Origin: Clostridiales bacterium
GTDB taxonomy: Bacteria > Bacillota > Clostridia > Peptostreptococcales > BM714
Length of the DNA stretch: 22,852 nt
Assembly: GCA_002869095.1 (NCBI GenBank)
Contig: PKTO01000281.1
Location: 1 to 22,852, forward strand
Direction of reading: 5' to 3'
The position numbers and the translations under genes are program-made. Shown here piece by piece: positions 1,762 to 6,822 of this stretch. The notes below the pieces were generated by a model, which saw only the letters and a program-made list of their open reading frames with translations, made no database searches and was not told the DNA's origin. Position 1 is the first letter of the stretch. The number at the start of each line of letters is the position of its first letter.

Positions 1762-2577
1762 TTGAAAAAAATTCTAGTATTGTTTATGGTTTTGGCCATG
1801 GTCGTGGCTGTATTTGCGGGATGTACGCAGCAGGAGGAACCGGAAGCGGCGGCTGAACCCAATTCTTTGGAAGCAATCATCGAAAAAGGCGAATTTGTCC
1901 TTGGCCTTGACGACAGTTTTCCGCCAATGGGATTCAGGGACGACAATGGCGACATAGTCGGTTTTGACATCGATTTGGCAAAAGAAGTTGCAGAAAGAAT
2001 GGGTGTTGAGCTTGTTGTAAAACCTGTCGATTGGGATGGGATTGCTCTCAGTCTGAAAAACGGAGACATTGACGTAATATGGAACGGATTGACTATTACT
2101 GATGAACGCAGAGAAACGATGGGATTCACGAAACCTTATCTCAACAACAGGCAAATAATTGTTGCAAGGGTCGATTCGGACATAGCGACGAAAGCAGACC
2201 TGGAAGGTAAAGTTGTAGGCGTTCAATTGGGAAGCAGCTCCGACATAGCCCTGAGCAGCGAACCCGAAGTTGCCGACAAGGTTGAAGATGTTAGAAAGTA
2301 TTCCAACAACGTCGAGGCATTGCTTGACTTGGCAAACGAGGGAACAGATGCAGTAGTGGTTGATGAAATTGTGGGAAGATACTATATAGCAAAGAAGCCT
2401 GACATGTATAAGGTTCTGGACGATTATTTCACAGACGAGGAATACGGAGTCGGCTACCGCAAGGAAGACACTGACTTCGGTCAAGAGCTTGACAGAATTT
2501 TGGATGAAATGAAAGCGGATGGAACAGCAGACGCAATCTCCGAGGAATGGTTCGGAGAAGCTATCGTATTGAAATAG
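1762..2577 (+). CDS. Amino-acid ABC transporter substrate-binding lipoprotein (SBP family 3)
   Basis: Extracellular receptor of a polar amino-acid importer. The first 21 residues form a lipoprotein signal (K-K, hydrophobic core, then V-F-A-G-C with the lipidated Cys at 21); an acidic linker follows. The family 3 periplasmic-binding fold shows in DDSFPPMGF (50-58), GFDIDLAKEVAERMG (67-81) and the ligand loop NGLTITDERRETMGF (108-122), where Arg116 is the expected contact for the amino-acid carboxylate. Length, 271 aa, is usual. The start is TTG at 1762 behind AGGGGAG (1749-1755). The permease follows 12 bp after the stop. The exact amino acid (glutamine, cystine, arginine and so on) cannot be told from sequence alone. 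Confidence 0.93.
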   Translation: MKKILVLFMVLAMVVAVFAGCTQQEEPEAAAEPNSLEAIIEKGEFVLGLDDSFPPMGFRDDNGDIVGFDIDLAKEVAERMGVELVVKPVDWDGIALSLKNGDIDVIWNGLTITDERRETMGFTKPYLNNRQIIVARVDSDIATKADLEGKVVGVQLGSSSDIALSSEPEVADKVEDVRKYSNNVEALLDLANEGTDAVVVDEIVGRYYIAKKPDMYKVLDDYFTDEEYGVGYRKEDTDFGQELDRILDEMKADGTADAISEEWFGEAIVLK

Positions 2578-2589
2578 GAGCTGGAGAAT

Positions 2590-3234
2590 TTGGAAAAGCT
2601 TTTTAGCATCACCTTGTATATATTGAAAGGCAGCGGTGTCACACTGGGGCTTTACGCCATTACGGCCGTTTTTTCAATGCCTCTCGGACTCATGTGCGCC
2701 TTGGGGAAAATATCAAAAAACAAGGTTTTAAGCAAGGCGGTAAGTTTGTACACATGGGTTTTCAGGGGAACGCCCCTTCTGCTCCAATTGTTCTTCACCT
2801 ACTATGGCTTGCCCGTATTGGGCATAAGGTGGAGCGGACCGTTTGCTCCCGCCGCTTTGACTTTCATACTGAACTACGCCGCTTACCTGACGGAAATTTT
2901 CAGGGCTGGGATACAGTCAATAGACAAGGGGCAGTACGAGGCTGCAAAGGTTTTGGGCATGAACTACAGCCAGACAATGCGTAAAATAATAATACCCCAG
3001 ACAGTAAAGAGGATACTTCCGCCACTTGGCAATGAAGCCATCACTCTCGTCAAGGACACTGCGCTTGTGGCAGTCATAGCCTTGGCTGAAATACTGAGGA
3101 ATGCCAAGGAAATTGTGACAAGGGAATTCATAATAACCCCGTTTTTCATAGCGGCTGCGATTTATCTTGTGTTGACCTCGGTGATTGTTTTGACATTCAA
3201 CCGCATGGAAGAAAAATATTCGTACTATGAGTAG
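2590..3234 (+). CDS. Polar amino-acid ABC transporter permease (HisM/GlnP type)
   Basis: Integral membrane subunit of importer 1, 214 aa with about five membrane segments, as is usual for HisMQ-type permeases. The family hallmarks WVFRGTPLLLQLFFTYYG (56-73) and the EAA loop QYEAAKVLGMNYSQTM (115-130), which docks on the ATPase, are intact. The start is TTG 2590, 9 bp after AGGAG (2576-2580) that overlaps the stop of the binding protein; no better ATG is near. It is a single permease gene, so the transporter probably uses a homodimer. The ATPase gene follows after 8 bp. Confidence 0.93.
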   Translation: MEKLFSITLYILKGSGVTLGLYAITAVFSMPLGLMCALGKISKNKVLSKAVSLYTWVFRGTPLLLQLFFTYYGLPVLGIRWSGPFAPAALTFILNYAAYLTEIFRAGIQSIDKGQYEAAKVLGMNYSQTMRKIIIPQTVKRILPPLGNEAITLVKDTALVAVIALAEILRNAKEIVTREFIITPFFIAAAIYLVLTSVIVLTFNRMEEKYSYYE

Positions 3235-3242
3235 GTGGATTC

Positions 3243-4004
3243 ATGAAAATGATTGAAATAAAAGATGTTTCAAAGAATTTCGGACCCTTGAAAGTGCTGG
3301 ACAAGATAAATCTGCAAGTGGACAGGGGAGAAATAATTTCGATAATCGGTCCTTCGGGAGCAGGGAAGAGCACGCTTTTGAGGTCAGTGATACAATTGGA
3401 ATCAATCGATGATGGAATAGTTGAAATCGAAGGTCTCAGAATCGCATGCAGGAAAGACAGGGACGACGACGAACCGATCGACAAAACCACGGTCCGGGAA
3501 GGGCTTGCTAAAATGGGTATGGTTTTTCAGGGATTCAATCTGTTTCCTCATATGACTGTTCTTGAGAACGTCATGATAGCTCAGACAATTGTAAAGGACA
3601 GAAGCCAGAAGGAAGCCCAAGAAAAAGCGAAAGCCATATTGAACAAGGTTGGCCTTACGGACAAGGAGAACAGCTATCCTTCACAGATCTCAGGAGGACA
3701 GAAACAACGTGTCGCAATAGCCAGGGCATTGGCCATGGATCCCGACATAATGCTGTTTGACGAACCGACTTCCGCTCTCGATCCTGAATTGATAGGAGAG
3801 GTGCTGGGAGTCATAAAGGCCCTTGCACAAGAACGGATGACAATGATGATAGTCACCCATGAAATGAACTTTGCCCGGGAAATTTCCGACAGGATACTGT
3901 TCATGGAAGACGGCAGGATTGTAGAGTCCGGTCCGCCCGACAAGATATTTGTGAATCCCGAACATCCCAGAATAAGGACATTCCTGGATAAAATATTATC
4001 TTAG
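3243..4004 (+). CDS. Polar amino-acid ABC transporter ATPase (GlnQ/HisP type)
   Basis: Nucleotide-binding subunit that powers importer 1. All motifs are present: Walker A GPSGAGKST (36-44), Q-loop Gln96 in VFQGFNLF, signature ISGGQKQR (149-156, Ile replacing the usual Leu), Walker B IMLFDE (169-174) and the switch His206. Compared with the ATPase encoded at 8395-9150 it carries an acidic insertion around residues 70-80 (R-K-D-R-D-D-D-E). Translation starts at ATG 3243 behind AGGTGG (3233-3238), which touches the permease stop. A terminator at 4040-4067 ends the operon. Confidence 0.95.
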   Translation: MKMIEIKDVSKNFGPLKVLDKINLQVDRGEIISIIGPSGAGKSTLLRSVIQLESIDDGIVEIEGLRIACRKDRDDDEPIDKTTVREGLAKMGMVFQGFNLFPHMTVLENVMIAQTIVKDRSQKEAQEKAKAILNKVGLTDKENSYPSQISGGQKQRVAIARALAMDPDIMLFDEPTSALDPELIGEVLGVIKALAQERMTMMIVTHEMNFAREISDRILFMEDGRIVESGPPDKIFVNPEHPRIRTFLDKILS

Positions 4005-4039
4005 CAGTCGCTTGAATTGGGACTTTTTATTCAATCTCG

Positions 4040-4067
4040 CATCCGCCGAAGTTCGGCGGATGTTTTT
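4040..4067 (+). terminator. Intrinsic terminator after ABC operon 1
   Basis: CATCCGCCG (4040-4048) pairs with CGGCGGATG (4054-4062) around an AAGTT loop, and is followed by a T-run. The next promoter begins within about 10 bp. Confidence 0.92.
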
Positions 4068-4072
4068 GTTGG

Positions 4073-4091
4073 AATGATTTTATGGTAAAAT
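4073..4091 (+). promoter_or_regulatory. Extended -10 promoter with overlapping inverted-repeat operator, OPT operon
   Basis: TATGGTAAAAT (4081-4091) is an extended -10 box (TGN plus TAAAAT) with only a weak -35 (TTTTTG, 4063-4068). The same bases form a perfect inverted repeat, ATTTTA (4077-4082) and TAAAAT (4086-4091). The 19 bp from 4073 to 4091 recur at 6847-6865 in front of the XRE-cupin regulator gene with one change (G to C at the centre), which argues that both are bound by the same protein, most simply that regulator. Transcription would start near 4098. Confidence 0.65.
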
Positions 4092-4095
4092 GAGT

Positions 4096-4191
4096 TATCA
4101 GGACGGTATCCCAAAGAGCTGTACCTGCTCGCAAAATGGAGTTTGATGAACACAATGCAATTACTCCGAGCCCTGATACAGGGCTTTTTTT
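4096..4191 (+). ncRNA. Candidate attenuator or riboswitch-like leader of the OPT operon, class not recognised
   Basis: The leader between the promoter and the transporter gene folds in two incompatible ways. A terminator hairpin uses AGCCCTG (4169-4175). Alternatively TATCAGG at the very 5' end (4096-4102) pairs perfectly with CCTGATA (4172-4178), which dismantles the terminator and closes a domain. Inside that domain are hairpin GAGC/GCTC (4116-4119 with 4127-4130) and hairpin GGAGT/ACTCC (4138-4142 with 4163-4167). GGTA (4105-4108) can pair with TACC (4122-4125) in the first hairpin loop, a possible pseudoknot. I compared it from memory with SAM, TPP, glycine, purine, fluoride, ZTP, guanidine, T-box and cobalamin consensus elements and it matched none. 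A leader-peptide attenuator is the rival explanation. Confidence 0.5.
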
Positions 4192-4193
4192 GA
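4146..4193 (+). CDS. Possible 15-codon leader peptide inside the attenuator
   Basis: ATG at 4146 opens a short frame reading M-N-T-M-Q-L-L-R-A-L-I-Q-G-F-F and ending at TGA 4191-4193. A GGAG (4138-4141) precedes it by 4 bp, a tight but usable spacing, and that GGAG is itself paired in the GGAGT/ACTCC hairpin. The coding frame runs through the whole terminator hairpin, so a ribosome paused on the adjacent Leu codons (4161-4166) would cover its left arm. This is inference: the frame is short enough to arise by chance. Confidence 0.3.
   Translation: MNTMQLLRALIQGFF
4169..4191 (+). terminator. Intrinsic terminator/attenuator upstream of the OPT gene
   Basis: AGCCCTG (4169-4175) and CAGGGCT (4179-4185) form a 7-bp GC-rich stem with an ATA loop, followed by a 7-base T-run (4185-4191). 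It lies 38 bp before the transporter start codon and about 70 bp after the predicted transcription start, the position of a conditional terminator. Confidence 0.85.
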
Positions 4194-4228
4194 CGCTTTC
4201 CTGAAATACATGAATACGGAGGCTCTAC

Positions 4229-5833
4229 ATGCACCAGGCAAGGAATCTAAAGGAACAGCTGACGCCGAGGAGTCTGGTTATCGGTGTCGTGGGAGCACTT
4301 GTCATAACGACAAGCTCAATGTATGTGGCTTTACGAATGGGGGCTTTGCCATGGCCCACAATATTTGTGGCGGTACTTTCCATGACATTGCTTAGGATGA
4401 TGGGAAATACCAATCTCAATGAAATAAACACGGCCCATACCGCCATGTCGGCGGGAAGCATGGTTGCAGGCGGACTTGCATTCACTGTTCCGGGAATCTG
4501 GATGATTCAGGCGGACGCTTCGGTTTCTTATTGGGAAGTCACGGCGGTGGCTCTTTCGGGAGCCCTGTTGGGAATGGTATTCACCGCGCTTGTCAGGTAC
4601 CACTTCATCGTGAAGGAAGAACTGCCTTTCCCTATGGGAATAGCTGCTTCCGAAACCGTAATTGCAGGAGACGAAGGCGGCTTGAAGGCCAGGCTTCTTT
4701 TTTCGTCCATGGCTGCCACCGCGCTTTTTACTGTTTTAAGGGATTGGTTCGGAAAAATTCCTGGAGCTTGGACAGCGAAAGGCCTTTACGCAAAAAACAT
4801 ATTCTTCGGTTTCTGGATTTCCCCGATGGCAATCGCCATCGGTTACATAATCGGGCCGCTCTTCACGGGAGTGTGGTTCCTGGGAGCTCTTGCATCATAC
4901 TTCGTAATCATACCCATAGGCGTGGCCTGGGGGTGGTTTGCCGATGTTGCCGCAGCAACCGCATTCAAGGACAGCTTGGGCATAGGGCTTATGGTCGGCA
5001 CGGGAATTGGTATTTTGTTCAAAGGAATACTGCCCAAGGCAAAGGAAATCTATGGACCCATATTCAGAAGAAAGACGATAGAGGGACTTAATGGCAGATG
5101 GACATTCGTTTCGATTGTTCTTCCTGTATTTCTTCTTACTTTTATATCAGGCATTCCTCTGGCGGGGAGCCTGCTGGCGATTGCGGGAATATGGCTGACG
5201 ACGGCCATGGCAGCGTCGATTACGGGACAAACAGGAATCAATCCAATGGAGATATTCGGCATAATAGTTTTGCTTGCGGTAAGAACTGTAGTAGCAATCG
5301 GCATGAAAGAAGCATTTTTCATAGCTGCCGTTGTGGCGGTCGCCTGCGGATTGGCAGGCGATGTGTTGAACGACTTCAAATCAGGGCACATACTGGGTAC
5401 GGATCCTAGAGCGCAAGTTGTGGCGGAGGCGGTTGGAGGAATTGTCGGAGCTCTGGTTTCCGCAAGCGTGCTGTTTATTATGTTCAAGGCTTATGGAACT
5501 TTCGGACCTGGCACCGAATTGCCTGCGCCCCAGGCCTACGCGGTTTCAACCATGGTTGGAGGATTGCCGAATCAGGGAGCTTTCTTTTGGGGATTTGCTA
5601 TAGGATTTGCTCTTTACATGCTTAATATTCCGGGCATGACCTTGGGCCTGGGAATATATTTGCCGATGTTCATTTCCACAACGGTTTTTGCCGGCGGACT
5701 GCTTGGGCTTGTGTTTGGGAAAAGGGACGAGGAAAGCAAGAATCGTGGAACGGTATTGGCATCCGGAATTCTTGGAGGAGAAGGAGTAGCCGGTGTCTTG
5801 ATTGCAATAATCAAGGTTTTGACCATGGGATAA
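4229..5833 (+). CDS. OPT-family oligopeptide transporter
   Basis: Multi-spanning membrane carrier of the oligopeptide transporter (OPT) superfamily, expected to import short peptides with a cation gradient; some relatives move metal chelates instead. The 534 residues are almost wholly hydrophobic with an estimated 14-16 membrane segments. OPT signatures are visible: AHTAMSAGSMVAGG (69-82), LPFPMGIAASETV (132-144), TGQTGINPMEI (332-342), GDVLNDFKSGHILGTDPRAQ (377-396) and the C-terminal glycine-rich GILGGEGVAG. Start ATG 4229 has CGGAGG (4217-4222) 6 bp upstream. The peptidase gene begins 11 bp after the stop, with its ribosome site touching that stop, so uptake and cleavage are probably coupled. 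Expression should depend on the operator at 4077-4091 and the leader terminator. Confidence 0.92.
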   Translation: MHQARNLKEQLTPRSLVIGVVGALVITTSSMYVALRMGALPWPTIFVAVLSMTLLRMMGNTNLNEINTAHTAMSAGSMVAGGLAFTVPGIWMIQADASVSYWEVTAVALSGALLGMVFTALVRYHFIVKEELPFPMGIAASETVIAGDEGGLKARLLFSSMAATALFTVLRDWFGKIPGAWTAKGLYAKNIFFGFWISPMAIAIGYIIGPLFTGVWFLGALASYFVIIPIGVAWGWFADVAAATAFKDSLGIGLMVGTGIGILFKGILPKAKEIYGPIFRRKTIEGLNGRWTFVSIVLPVFLLTFISGIPLAGSLLAIAGIWLTTAMAASITGQTGINPMEIFGIIVLLAVRTVVAIGMKEAFFIAAVVAVACGLAGDVLNDFKSGHILGTDPRAQVVAEAVGGIVGALVSASVLFIMFKAYGTFGPGTELPAPQAYAVSTMVGGLPNQGAFFWGFAIGFALYMLNIPGMTLGLGIYLPMFISTTVFAGGLLGLVFGKRDEESKNRGTVLASGILGGEGVAGVLIAIIKVLTMG

Positions 5834-5844
5834 GGAGGGGTGGT

Positions 5845-6822
5845 ATGATTTCTATAACCGATATAAAAAACATGCCGGGCGTGCGTATCGGCAGCTGGGA
5901 AGACAGACAGGCAGCTACCGGCTGCACTGTTGTAATTGCGGAGAATGGAGCGCCTGCAGGTGTAGATGTAAGGGGCGGAGCCCCGGGGACAAGGGAAACG
6001 GATTTGCTTGACCCGGTAAATCTCGTCGACAGGGTACACGCCGTCTTTTTGTCGGGTGGGAGCGCTTTCGGACTCGATTCGGCAGGCGGAATAATGCAGT
6101 ATCTCGAGGAACGGAATATAGGATTCGATGTAGGGGTTACAAAAGTGCCTATAGTGACAGGGGCAGTGCTTTTCGACCTGACTTATGGAGATTTCAGGAC
6201 CAGACCTGGCAAAGAAGCGGGGTATGCGGCTGCGGAAGCCTCGGAAGCCAATTGTCTGAAGGAGGGCAGCTACGGCGCCGGAACAGGGGCGACAGTAGGC
6301 AAGGTTAAAGGCATGGATTATGCGATGAAAGGCGGACTCGGGACATTTTGTTTTGAATTTGAAGGGCTTTATGTTGGAGCGGTAGTTGCTGTCAACGCTT
6401 TTGGAAACATATACAGTCCGGAGCGCAAGGAATTTCTGGCTGGAGTTCTTGACGAAGGAAAGAAAAACATATTGGATGCCGAAGAGATCATCGTAGGCAT
6501 GAACAACTCCCAAAAGGACTCTTTCAAGGGCAATACGACAATAGGAGTTGTAATGACAAACGGCAAGTTTGACAAGGCCGAATGCAAAAAAATTGCCCAG
6601 ATGGCGCACAATGGACTTGCAAGAACGATAAGGCCGTCACACACTCAACTGGATGGTGACTCTATATTCGTCATGTCGACCGGCCAAGCTGAAGCTGATG
6701 TCAGCGCGGTTGGCATAATGGCGGCGGACGCTGTTGCGCAAGCCGTTCAAAGGGCGGTAAAGGAAGCCGAATCCACTTGCGGAATGCCGTCCTACAAGGA
6801 CATACACGAAGCTCTTGACTGA
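5845..6822 (+). CDS. P1-family (S58/DmpA-like) N-terminal-nucleophile aminopeptidase
   Basis: A 325-aa cytoplasmic hydrolase of the DmpA/BapA/P1 family, whose members release N-terminal residues from small peptides (L-aminopeptidase, D-esterase or beta-peptidase). They mature by self-cleavage ahead of a Ser/Thr nucleophile. Here the cleavage site is visible as K-G-N230 / T231-T-I-G-V-V-M-T-N-G, making Thr231 the likely nucleophile and giving alpha (1-230) and beta (231-325) chains. The N-terminal MPGVRIGSWEDRQAATGCTV (9-28) and FLSGGSAFGLDSAGG (68-82) blocks are also typical. Start ATG 5845 follows AAGGAGGGG (5832-5840). Being second in the operon behind the OPT carrier suggests it digests the imported peptides; the preferred peptide is unknown. 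Confidence 0.92.
   Translation: MISITDIKNMPGVRIGSWEDRQAATGCTVVIAENGAPAGVDVRGGAPGTRETDLLDPVNLVDRVHAVFLSGGSAFGLDSAGGIMQYLEERNIGFDVGVTKVPIVTGAVLFDLTYGDFRTRPGKEAGYAAAEASEANCLKEGSYGAGTGATVGKVKGMDYAMKGGLGTFCFEFEGLYVGAVVAVNAFGNIYSPERKEFLAGVLDEGKKNILDAEEIIVGMNNSQKDSFKGNTTIGVVMTNGKFDKAECKKIAQMAHNGLARTIRPSHTQLDGDSIFVMSTGQAEADVSAVGIMAADAVAQAVQRAVKEAESTCGMPSYKDIHEALD

Follow-up and report, generated by a model that had tools for sequence, protein, structure and literature searches.

The window analysed here, a whole stretch of 22,852 nucleotides of clostridial DNA, contains a leader that is bounded by an upstream terminator (4039-4063, just 3' of an amino-acid-type ABC transporter gene) and an OPT transporter gene (4229-5833), which is followed by a P1 gene. 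This locus raises the question which kind of RNA switch the leader forms and to which signal its operon may respond. A sequence-only reading had taken it for a conditional terminator with a new type of aptamer, placing peptide uptake under RNA control. We regard it as probable that the leader is a single-hairpin pan element which, together with an intrinsic terminator, controls a vitamin B5 operon, and are less sure of the exact cargo. The elements referred to below are as follows.

4083-4091, + strand: possible extended -10 promoter element TGGTAAAAT (read by eye)
4096-4102, + strand: 5' strand of the antiterminator, TATCAGG, its AGG also serving the pan hairpin as outer 5' arm (fold pairs; letters match in leader L327)
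4100-4126, + strand: lone hairpin of the pan type, in which A4108 and A4123 bulge out (R1 model, RF01749, covariation, script)
4116-4130, + strand: alternative hairpin, GAGC 4116-4119 with GCTC 4127-4130, arising once the antiterminator displaces the pan hairpin (fold of 4096-4181)
4138-4167, + strand: spacer hairpin GGAGT/ACTCC (folds)
4168-4191, + strand: intrinsic terminator (stem 4168-4186) and T-run (terminator scan; folding)
4172-4178, + strand: 3' strand of the antiterminator, CCTGATA, located in the terminator's 5' arm and loop (fold pairs; also in L327)
4229-5833, + strand: OPT-family transporter (PF03169, 168.7 bits against a cut-off of 25.8; homologues under pan RNA with PanK-II)
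5845-6822, + strand: P1/S58-family amidohydrolase with an NTT motif at residue 230 (PF03576, 147.7 bits against a cut-off of 23.9)

The terminator scan recorded two terminators within 4005-4260, where 0.2 would be expected. A promoter upstream of the leader was not found by a consensus scan; the -10-like element seen by eye would set the RNA start near 4097, and an RNA starting there might miss part of the 5' strand of the antiterminator.

Identity of the leader hairpin

No Rfam family reaches its gathering threshold in the window, as would be expected if the leader belonged to a novel class of small-molecule riboswitches with the three-way fold proposed earlier. At a permissive threshold, the pan motif RF01749 had the top bit score among six sub-threshold matches (E of 0.53 over all families), spanning 4100-4183 with a fit that depends on the first hairpin of the pan pair; since its 18.8 bits stay below the gathering value of 36.2, the claim made here is limited to a variant of the pan-type hairpin and does not extend to a standard member of RF01749. 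According to its original description, the pan motif was published without a known effector, protein binding was suggested, and tandem hairpins occur in most, but not all, members (Weinberg et al., 2010; PMC2864571).

A model of the first pan hairpin, termed R1, was built from 22 RF01749 matches of related genomes; the window was left out, as was locus L051, whose hairpin is identical to that of L049. On the window, R1 matches 4100-4126 at 28.6 bits (E of 5.9e-6), the runner-up scoring 11.2 bits. It has two strong matches in the entire 1.93-Mb assembly, the window hairpin (E of 5.0e-4) and a complete pan RNA on a different contig (30.4 bits), which precedes a gene whose start reads by eye as DUF2520-type; a third match of 20.5 bits lies inside a long reading frame. 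When both strands of the window were searched by a script for the pairs, the two bulged A's and the consensus letters, the hairpin starting at 4100 was the only match, with ten pairs, A4108 and A4123 unpaired and agreement in six of six consensus checks. In an alignment of 34 pan hairpins (the window, 11 from OPT loci and 22 others, L071 being dropped as near-identical to L070), nine of the ten pairs vary on both sides and 94.1% of the cells are paired. All 500 shuffles stay below the observed value in four of five covariation measures, and 5 of 500 attain it in the fifth; sliding controls are far off. The hairpin pairings thus show the covariation that had been named as a check of the sequence-only reading.

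The hairpin 4100-4126 is therefore pan-type, and it shares its AGG with the antiterminator TATCAGG/CCTGATA. It resembles RF01749 in the bulged hairpin with two conserved bulged A's, in the covarying stem, in the order of the conserved letters (GnnAUC...GAnC...ACC) and in its position in a 5' leader. It differs in the score below gathering and in having a lone hairpin where a tandem pair is usual, as a hairpin scan of 4127-4230 recognised no second one. The pan motif lies before pantothenate genes; the window hairpin precedes OPT-P1, whose OPT has homologues under pan RNA with PanK-II and which at some other loci neighbours panB, panE or panF. The statement that the leader matches no riboswitch class thus gives way to an orphan motif that is represented by one hairpin. 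Likewise, the GGTA/TACC pairing is no separate pseudoknot, as the same bases sit in the one bulged hairpin, and the three-way aptamer finds no support in a fold that comprises, besides the pan hairpin and the terminator, only an unremarkable hairpin at 4138-4167. Since the remaining 40 nt form an ordinary hairpin that is absent from the shorter L327 leader described below, a new riboswitch class seems very improbable. An ordinary attenuator with an accidental likeness to pan is another alternative, but the genome-wide E of 5e-4 and the intact consensus letters, ten pairs and both bulges argue against it, and we consider it improbable.

The conditional terminator and its counterpart before PanC

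The perfect complementarity claimed between 4096-4102 and 4172-4178 was confirmed by listing the pairs; a 7-bp complement to the 20 nt that surround the hairpin's 5' arm was met in 107 of 20,000 trials in which the terminator arm was shuffled. The further claim of mutually exclusive folds, making up a conditional terminator of the OPT gene, was borne out by stepwise folding, an equilibrium calculation on fragments that start at 4096 and whose ends advance in three-base steps. The pan hairpin is dominant for RNA ends up to 4174 (P of 0.85-0.92), it is melted in favour of the antiterminator at ends 4177 and 4180 (P of 0.80 and 0.97, respectively), mixed states occur at 4183, and the pan hairpin (about 0.9) and the terminator (0.99) prevail from 4186 onward. 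As computed, the antiterminator is thus predicted to be favoured only while the 3' arm of the terminator is still untranscribed. A bonus of 5 kcal on the pan hairpin, a size chosen by us as stand-in for a bound effector, lowered the antiterminator from 0.80 to 0.12 at RNA end 4177 and from 0.97 to only 0.63 at 4180, so occupation of the hairpin should favour termination. With or without the bonus, the terminated state prevails at equilibrium in the full-length RNA, so that control would have to be kinetic.

We propose that the pan effector is a metabolite of the CoA or pantothenate type or else a protein that senses such a metabolite. Its presence on the hairpin would lock the AGG, thereby block the antiterminator and cause termination before OPT, while its absence would allow the antiterminator to form and OPT-P1 to be made. 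The operon would be off when vitamin B5 is plentiful, an OFF direction that we infer from the fold logic.

Attenuation by a leader peptide was also considered, starting from an ATG at 4136 noticed by eye, and was rejected. Its open frame of 22 codons does cross the terminator, but no ribosome site is apparent by eye and the corresponding segment is absent from L327, making this explanation hardly credible.

The best evidence that the conditional terminator may be a working unit of the pan system comes from one second leader only, L327 of genome G758, which is located upstream of PanC and matched by R1 at 25.0 bits. It has the order TATCAGGATGGCATC-ATCAT-GAGCCATACCC, a short spacer and GCCCTGATAC in the terminator, compared to TATCAGGACGGTATC-CCAAA-GAGCTGTACCT, a longer spacer and GCCCTGATAC in the window. 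The pairs of the two hairpins differ compensatorily, the antiterminator letters are identical, and the AGG of TATCAGG forms the outer arm of the pan hairpin in both leaders. Apart from the spacer length, L327 differs from the window by a longer terminator stem and by the gene it precedes; its 7-bp complement was met in 167 of 20,000 shuffles. The antiterminator helix of the sequence-only reading thus recurs in a second leader, but it does so unchanged, which indicates conservation rather than covariation. That identical switch letters surround a pan hairpin upstream of PanC also speaks against an accidental likeness of the window hairpin to pan.

A hairpin-arm antiterminator as a general rule for pan RNAs was not upheld in 32 hairpin-terminator cases with 100 shuffles each: a p of 0.05 or less was obtained for the 5' arm in the window and L170 and for the 3' arm in one hairpin each of L140 and L318, but in none of the remaining cases. 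L327 falls outside this set because it has too few T after the stem for the rule applied. An earlier scan without control, covering 30 leaders including the window, had hinted at 3'-arm pairing in many panB leaders.

Further matches of R1 show that single-hairpin pan elements exist as a real form. Among 60 relatives, five matches of at least 24.7 bits that are not above the RF01749 cut-off (L252, L257, L262, L263 and L265) all precede genes recognised by eye as panD-panC, DUF997-panF, DUF2520-panB (twice) or panC; L252 shows a sub-threshold RF01749 match over the full model (28.1 bits) and may be tandem. Three of four weaker matches inspected overlap long reading frames (L239, L264 and L267), the fourth (L266) does not. 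A search of the order yielded 89 matches in 393 genomes, of which 20 were chosen as seemingly not classical pan RNAs. As identified by tblastn, 17 of these are located upstream of DUF2520, PanB, PanC, PanD or PanF; no such gene was found downstream of L322 (27.5 bits), L328 (24.5 bits) and L331 (24.4 bits), and L322 lends some weight to the chance explanation. A scan of the 17 loci for second hairpins returned candidates of ten pairs (L315 and L318) and of nine pairs (L316, L327, L330 and L333), while shuffled segments yield one of nine pairs in 6%. The candidate of L327 begins about 100 bases downstream, at the start of PanC; the second hairpin of L330 is classical, L326 may have one as judged by eye, and the scan found none in the remaining ten.

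Pan RNAs at pantothenate and OPT loci

The genes controlled by pan RNAs were surveyed in a census of 82 RF01749 matches, 81 of them above the cut-off, from the 60 relatives and 391 genomes of the class; the complete pan RNA of the window's own genome, lying at a contig end, was excluded. First downstream genes were classed by clusters, with Pfam names assigned to the representatives of most of these; in the PanB/PanC cluster, PanB is backed by matches to Pfam-named PanB and PanC by recognition. DUF2520, PanB/PanC, PanD or CoaBC follow the pan RNA in 59 of the 82 cases, an ECF substrate component in 12 (nine with a type III pantothenate kinase, one with PanK-II), DUF997 plus a sodium symporter in four, an OPT transporter in five (all with PanK-II), and PanK-II itself in one; one case is unclassified. 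Transporter genes are not named among the pan targets in the available text of the 2010 paper (PMC2864571). A pan RNA or hairpin lies directly before DUF997 and a PanF-like symporter in L209, L210, L218, L220, L257, L314 and L325 (tblastn found the symporter alone in L325), and L191 combines a pan RNA with an ECF substrate component and PanK-II, compared to PanK-III in nine of the 12 pan-ECF loci.

Relatives of the OPT gene were collected from 98 loci, duplicates included (L062 is identical to L090, and L063 to L111). The permissive Rfam scan was applied to 12 of them and detected a pan RNA above gathering, upstream of OPT and on the same strand, in 11 (L065, L067-L072, L074, L140, L142 and L153), all with PanK-II downstream; no pan RNA was detected upstream of OPT in L073. 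L066 and L134, which share one hairpin sequence, likewise show the tandem hairpins by script and by eye. These operons resemble the window in having a homologous OPT (about 46-52% identical) under a pan RNA, which argues against an accidental likeness of the window hairpin, and they differ by the tandem pan RNA, by PanK-II in place of P1 and by a separate clade in the OPT tree. PanK-II is found near OPT in 17 of the 98 loci and corresponds to one clade of 16 rows (support of 100, quick method), while P1 adjoins OPT in 59; the two do not occur together at any of the 98 loci within the flanks examined. In this tree, from which L066, L003, L004 and L006 were omitted as presumed copies, the nearest rows to the window's OPT are mostly P1-linked, the fork between the P1 side and the rest having a support of 90, below the starred level.

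The second pan hairpin of L065, L067, L070, L072, L074, L134 and L153 ends, by eye, in a GGAGG or GGGGG resembling a ribosome-binding site. It is followed by a short frame of about 7-12 codons, not shared in sequence and well upstream of OPT, which is perhaps a translated decoy under pan RNA control.

Most OPT-P1 loci show no pan hairpin, and the 11 pan-OPT loci are without P1; pan control of OPT-P1 is thus rare, which weighs against the reading favoured here. With stricter filters for many genomes, R1 placed a hairpin beside OPT in the window only, that is, in one of 70 OPT genomes among 393 genomes of the order. This value, and the fact that no close homologue of the leader was found before another OPT-P1 pair, count in favour of a chance resemblance. 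A looser script applied to 25 further OPT loci retrieved a divergent pan form in two, and one more genome of the same genus carries it as well, giving three genomes of one genus. These leaders (L278, L292 and L334) contain two pan-like hairpins plus a terminator before OPT-P1, and a candidate antiterminator in them draws on the second hairpin's 5' arm. That of L278 is identical to that of L128 of C. aminobutyricum, for which RF01749 gives a sub-cut-off score of 24.0 bits.

Transporter, hydrolase and the likely cargo

The gene neighbourhoods of OPT-P1 loci that lack pan RNA point toward vitamin B5 as well. PanB and PanE each occur near OPT-P1 in nine of 80 loci (PanB of L106 on the opposite strand) and a PanF-type symporter in four of 80, counts that do not represent as many independent events because several loci are close relatives; representatives of these neighbours lie above the NCBIfam thresholds of panB, apbA_panE and panF. 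The earlier proposal of an RNA switch over peptide uptake thus holds with respect to the RNA switch, while the comparative evidence points to vitamin B5 rather than to peptide nutrition.

PanB stands beside OPT-P1 in L075, L077, L081, L090, L122, L123, L130 and L144, joined by PanE in all but L090, and several of these loci add an M20 peptidase (six loci), PanF plus DUF997, an amidohydrolase, or FolD (L144). Showing no PanC or PanD matches, they look like an unstudied cluster for salvage or breakdown of vitamin B5.

Such neighbours would also suit a catabolic role, in which P1 splits pantothenate or pantetheine, PanE and PanB run in reverse to ketoisovalerate and methylene-THF, and the pan hairpin ties degradation to the vitamin supply. 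FolD in L144 and the lack of any PanC or PanD detected by tblastn in the 98 OPT loci agree with this. Against it, the window has neither PanB nor PanE near OPT-P1 (clustering of its first 12 kb), and the fold logic predicts repression at abundant effector, which is better suited to uptake. We consider the catabolic variant as unlikely, although clearly the most serious of the alternatives, and continue with the reading as an operon for vitamin B5 acquisition, in which OPT would import a pantetheine-type vitamer and P1 would hydrolyse it to pantothenate.

The OPT protein remains below the NCBIfam cut-offs of TIGR00733 and TIGR00728. P1 contains the sequence NTTIG at residue 230, and the Thr of the NTT motif is presumably the nucleophile. 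P1 shares its family, to which DmpA also belongs, with ThnT (PDB 3s3u and 3tm1; E of about 1e-45), the NTT motifs being aligned, but polyamide hydrolases and one aminopeptidase are its better structural matches. ThnT, the pantetheine hydrolase of thienamycin synthesis, degrades only a carbapenem-attached pantetheinyl group, yielding cysteamine (PMC6097109). Because of the better matches to the other enzymes, the substrate of P1 can only be proposed by analogy.

Yeast Opt1 is taken by us to belong to the same OPT family as the window's transporter. Named an oligopeptide transporter, it was reported in 2025 to import pantetheine as a mixed disulfide with glutathione; in contrast to the window's protein it is eukaryotic, and its authors see seemingly no orthologues outside yeast (PMC12406275). 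The same source states that type I and II pantothenate kinases also phosphorylate pantetheine, while type III cannot (PMC12406275), so that an OPT importing pantetheine would need either PanK-II or a hydrolase. PanK-III is present in 16 of 17 OPT genomes, the exception being the window's own assembly (91% complete), in which neither PanK-II nor PanK-III was found and TIGR00554 gave a sub-cut-off match only; none of the 17 genomes contains a TIGR00554 match reaching the cut-off. PanK-II occurs in all ten genomes with OPT-PanK-II and in none of the seven with OPT-P1. This distribution of kinase and hydrolase matches the need expected of a pantetheine-importing OPT. By analogy, the likely cargo would be pantetheine-type vitamers, cleaved by the ThnT-related P1.

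A more far-reaching proposal, which we put forward tentatively and hold to be possible rather than probable, is that this bacterial OPT branch provides the missing uptake of pantetheine vitamers, feeding either a pantetheine-capable PanK-II or, where PanK-III is the only kinase, P1; it would be controlled by pan RNAs, of which a lone hairpin of 27 nt may be a complete sensor. If true, the OPT gene set would mark the pan effector as a metabolite of the CoA pathway. A 2025 review describes the mechanism by which bacteria take up pantethine and pantetheine as unknown (PMC12570885). Among the matches listed from the open-licence literature, no paper joins pan RNA with OPT or P1 and none names a pan effector. 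The single-hairpin forms and the transporter and hydrolase targets extend the set of genes under pan control and point to an effector from the vitamin B5/CoA pathway, and the OPT operons allow a direct genetic and biochemical test of how pantetheine and pantethine enter the cell.

The best NCBIfam matches of the ABC transporter encoded upstream (1762-4004) are cystine transporter families, below their cut-offs. Cysteinopantetheine enters B. subtilis via a cystine ABC transporter (PMC11487621), and the vicinity of a cystine-like transporter to the OPT-P1 operon is possibly a coincidence.
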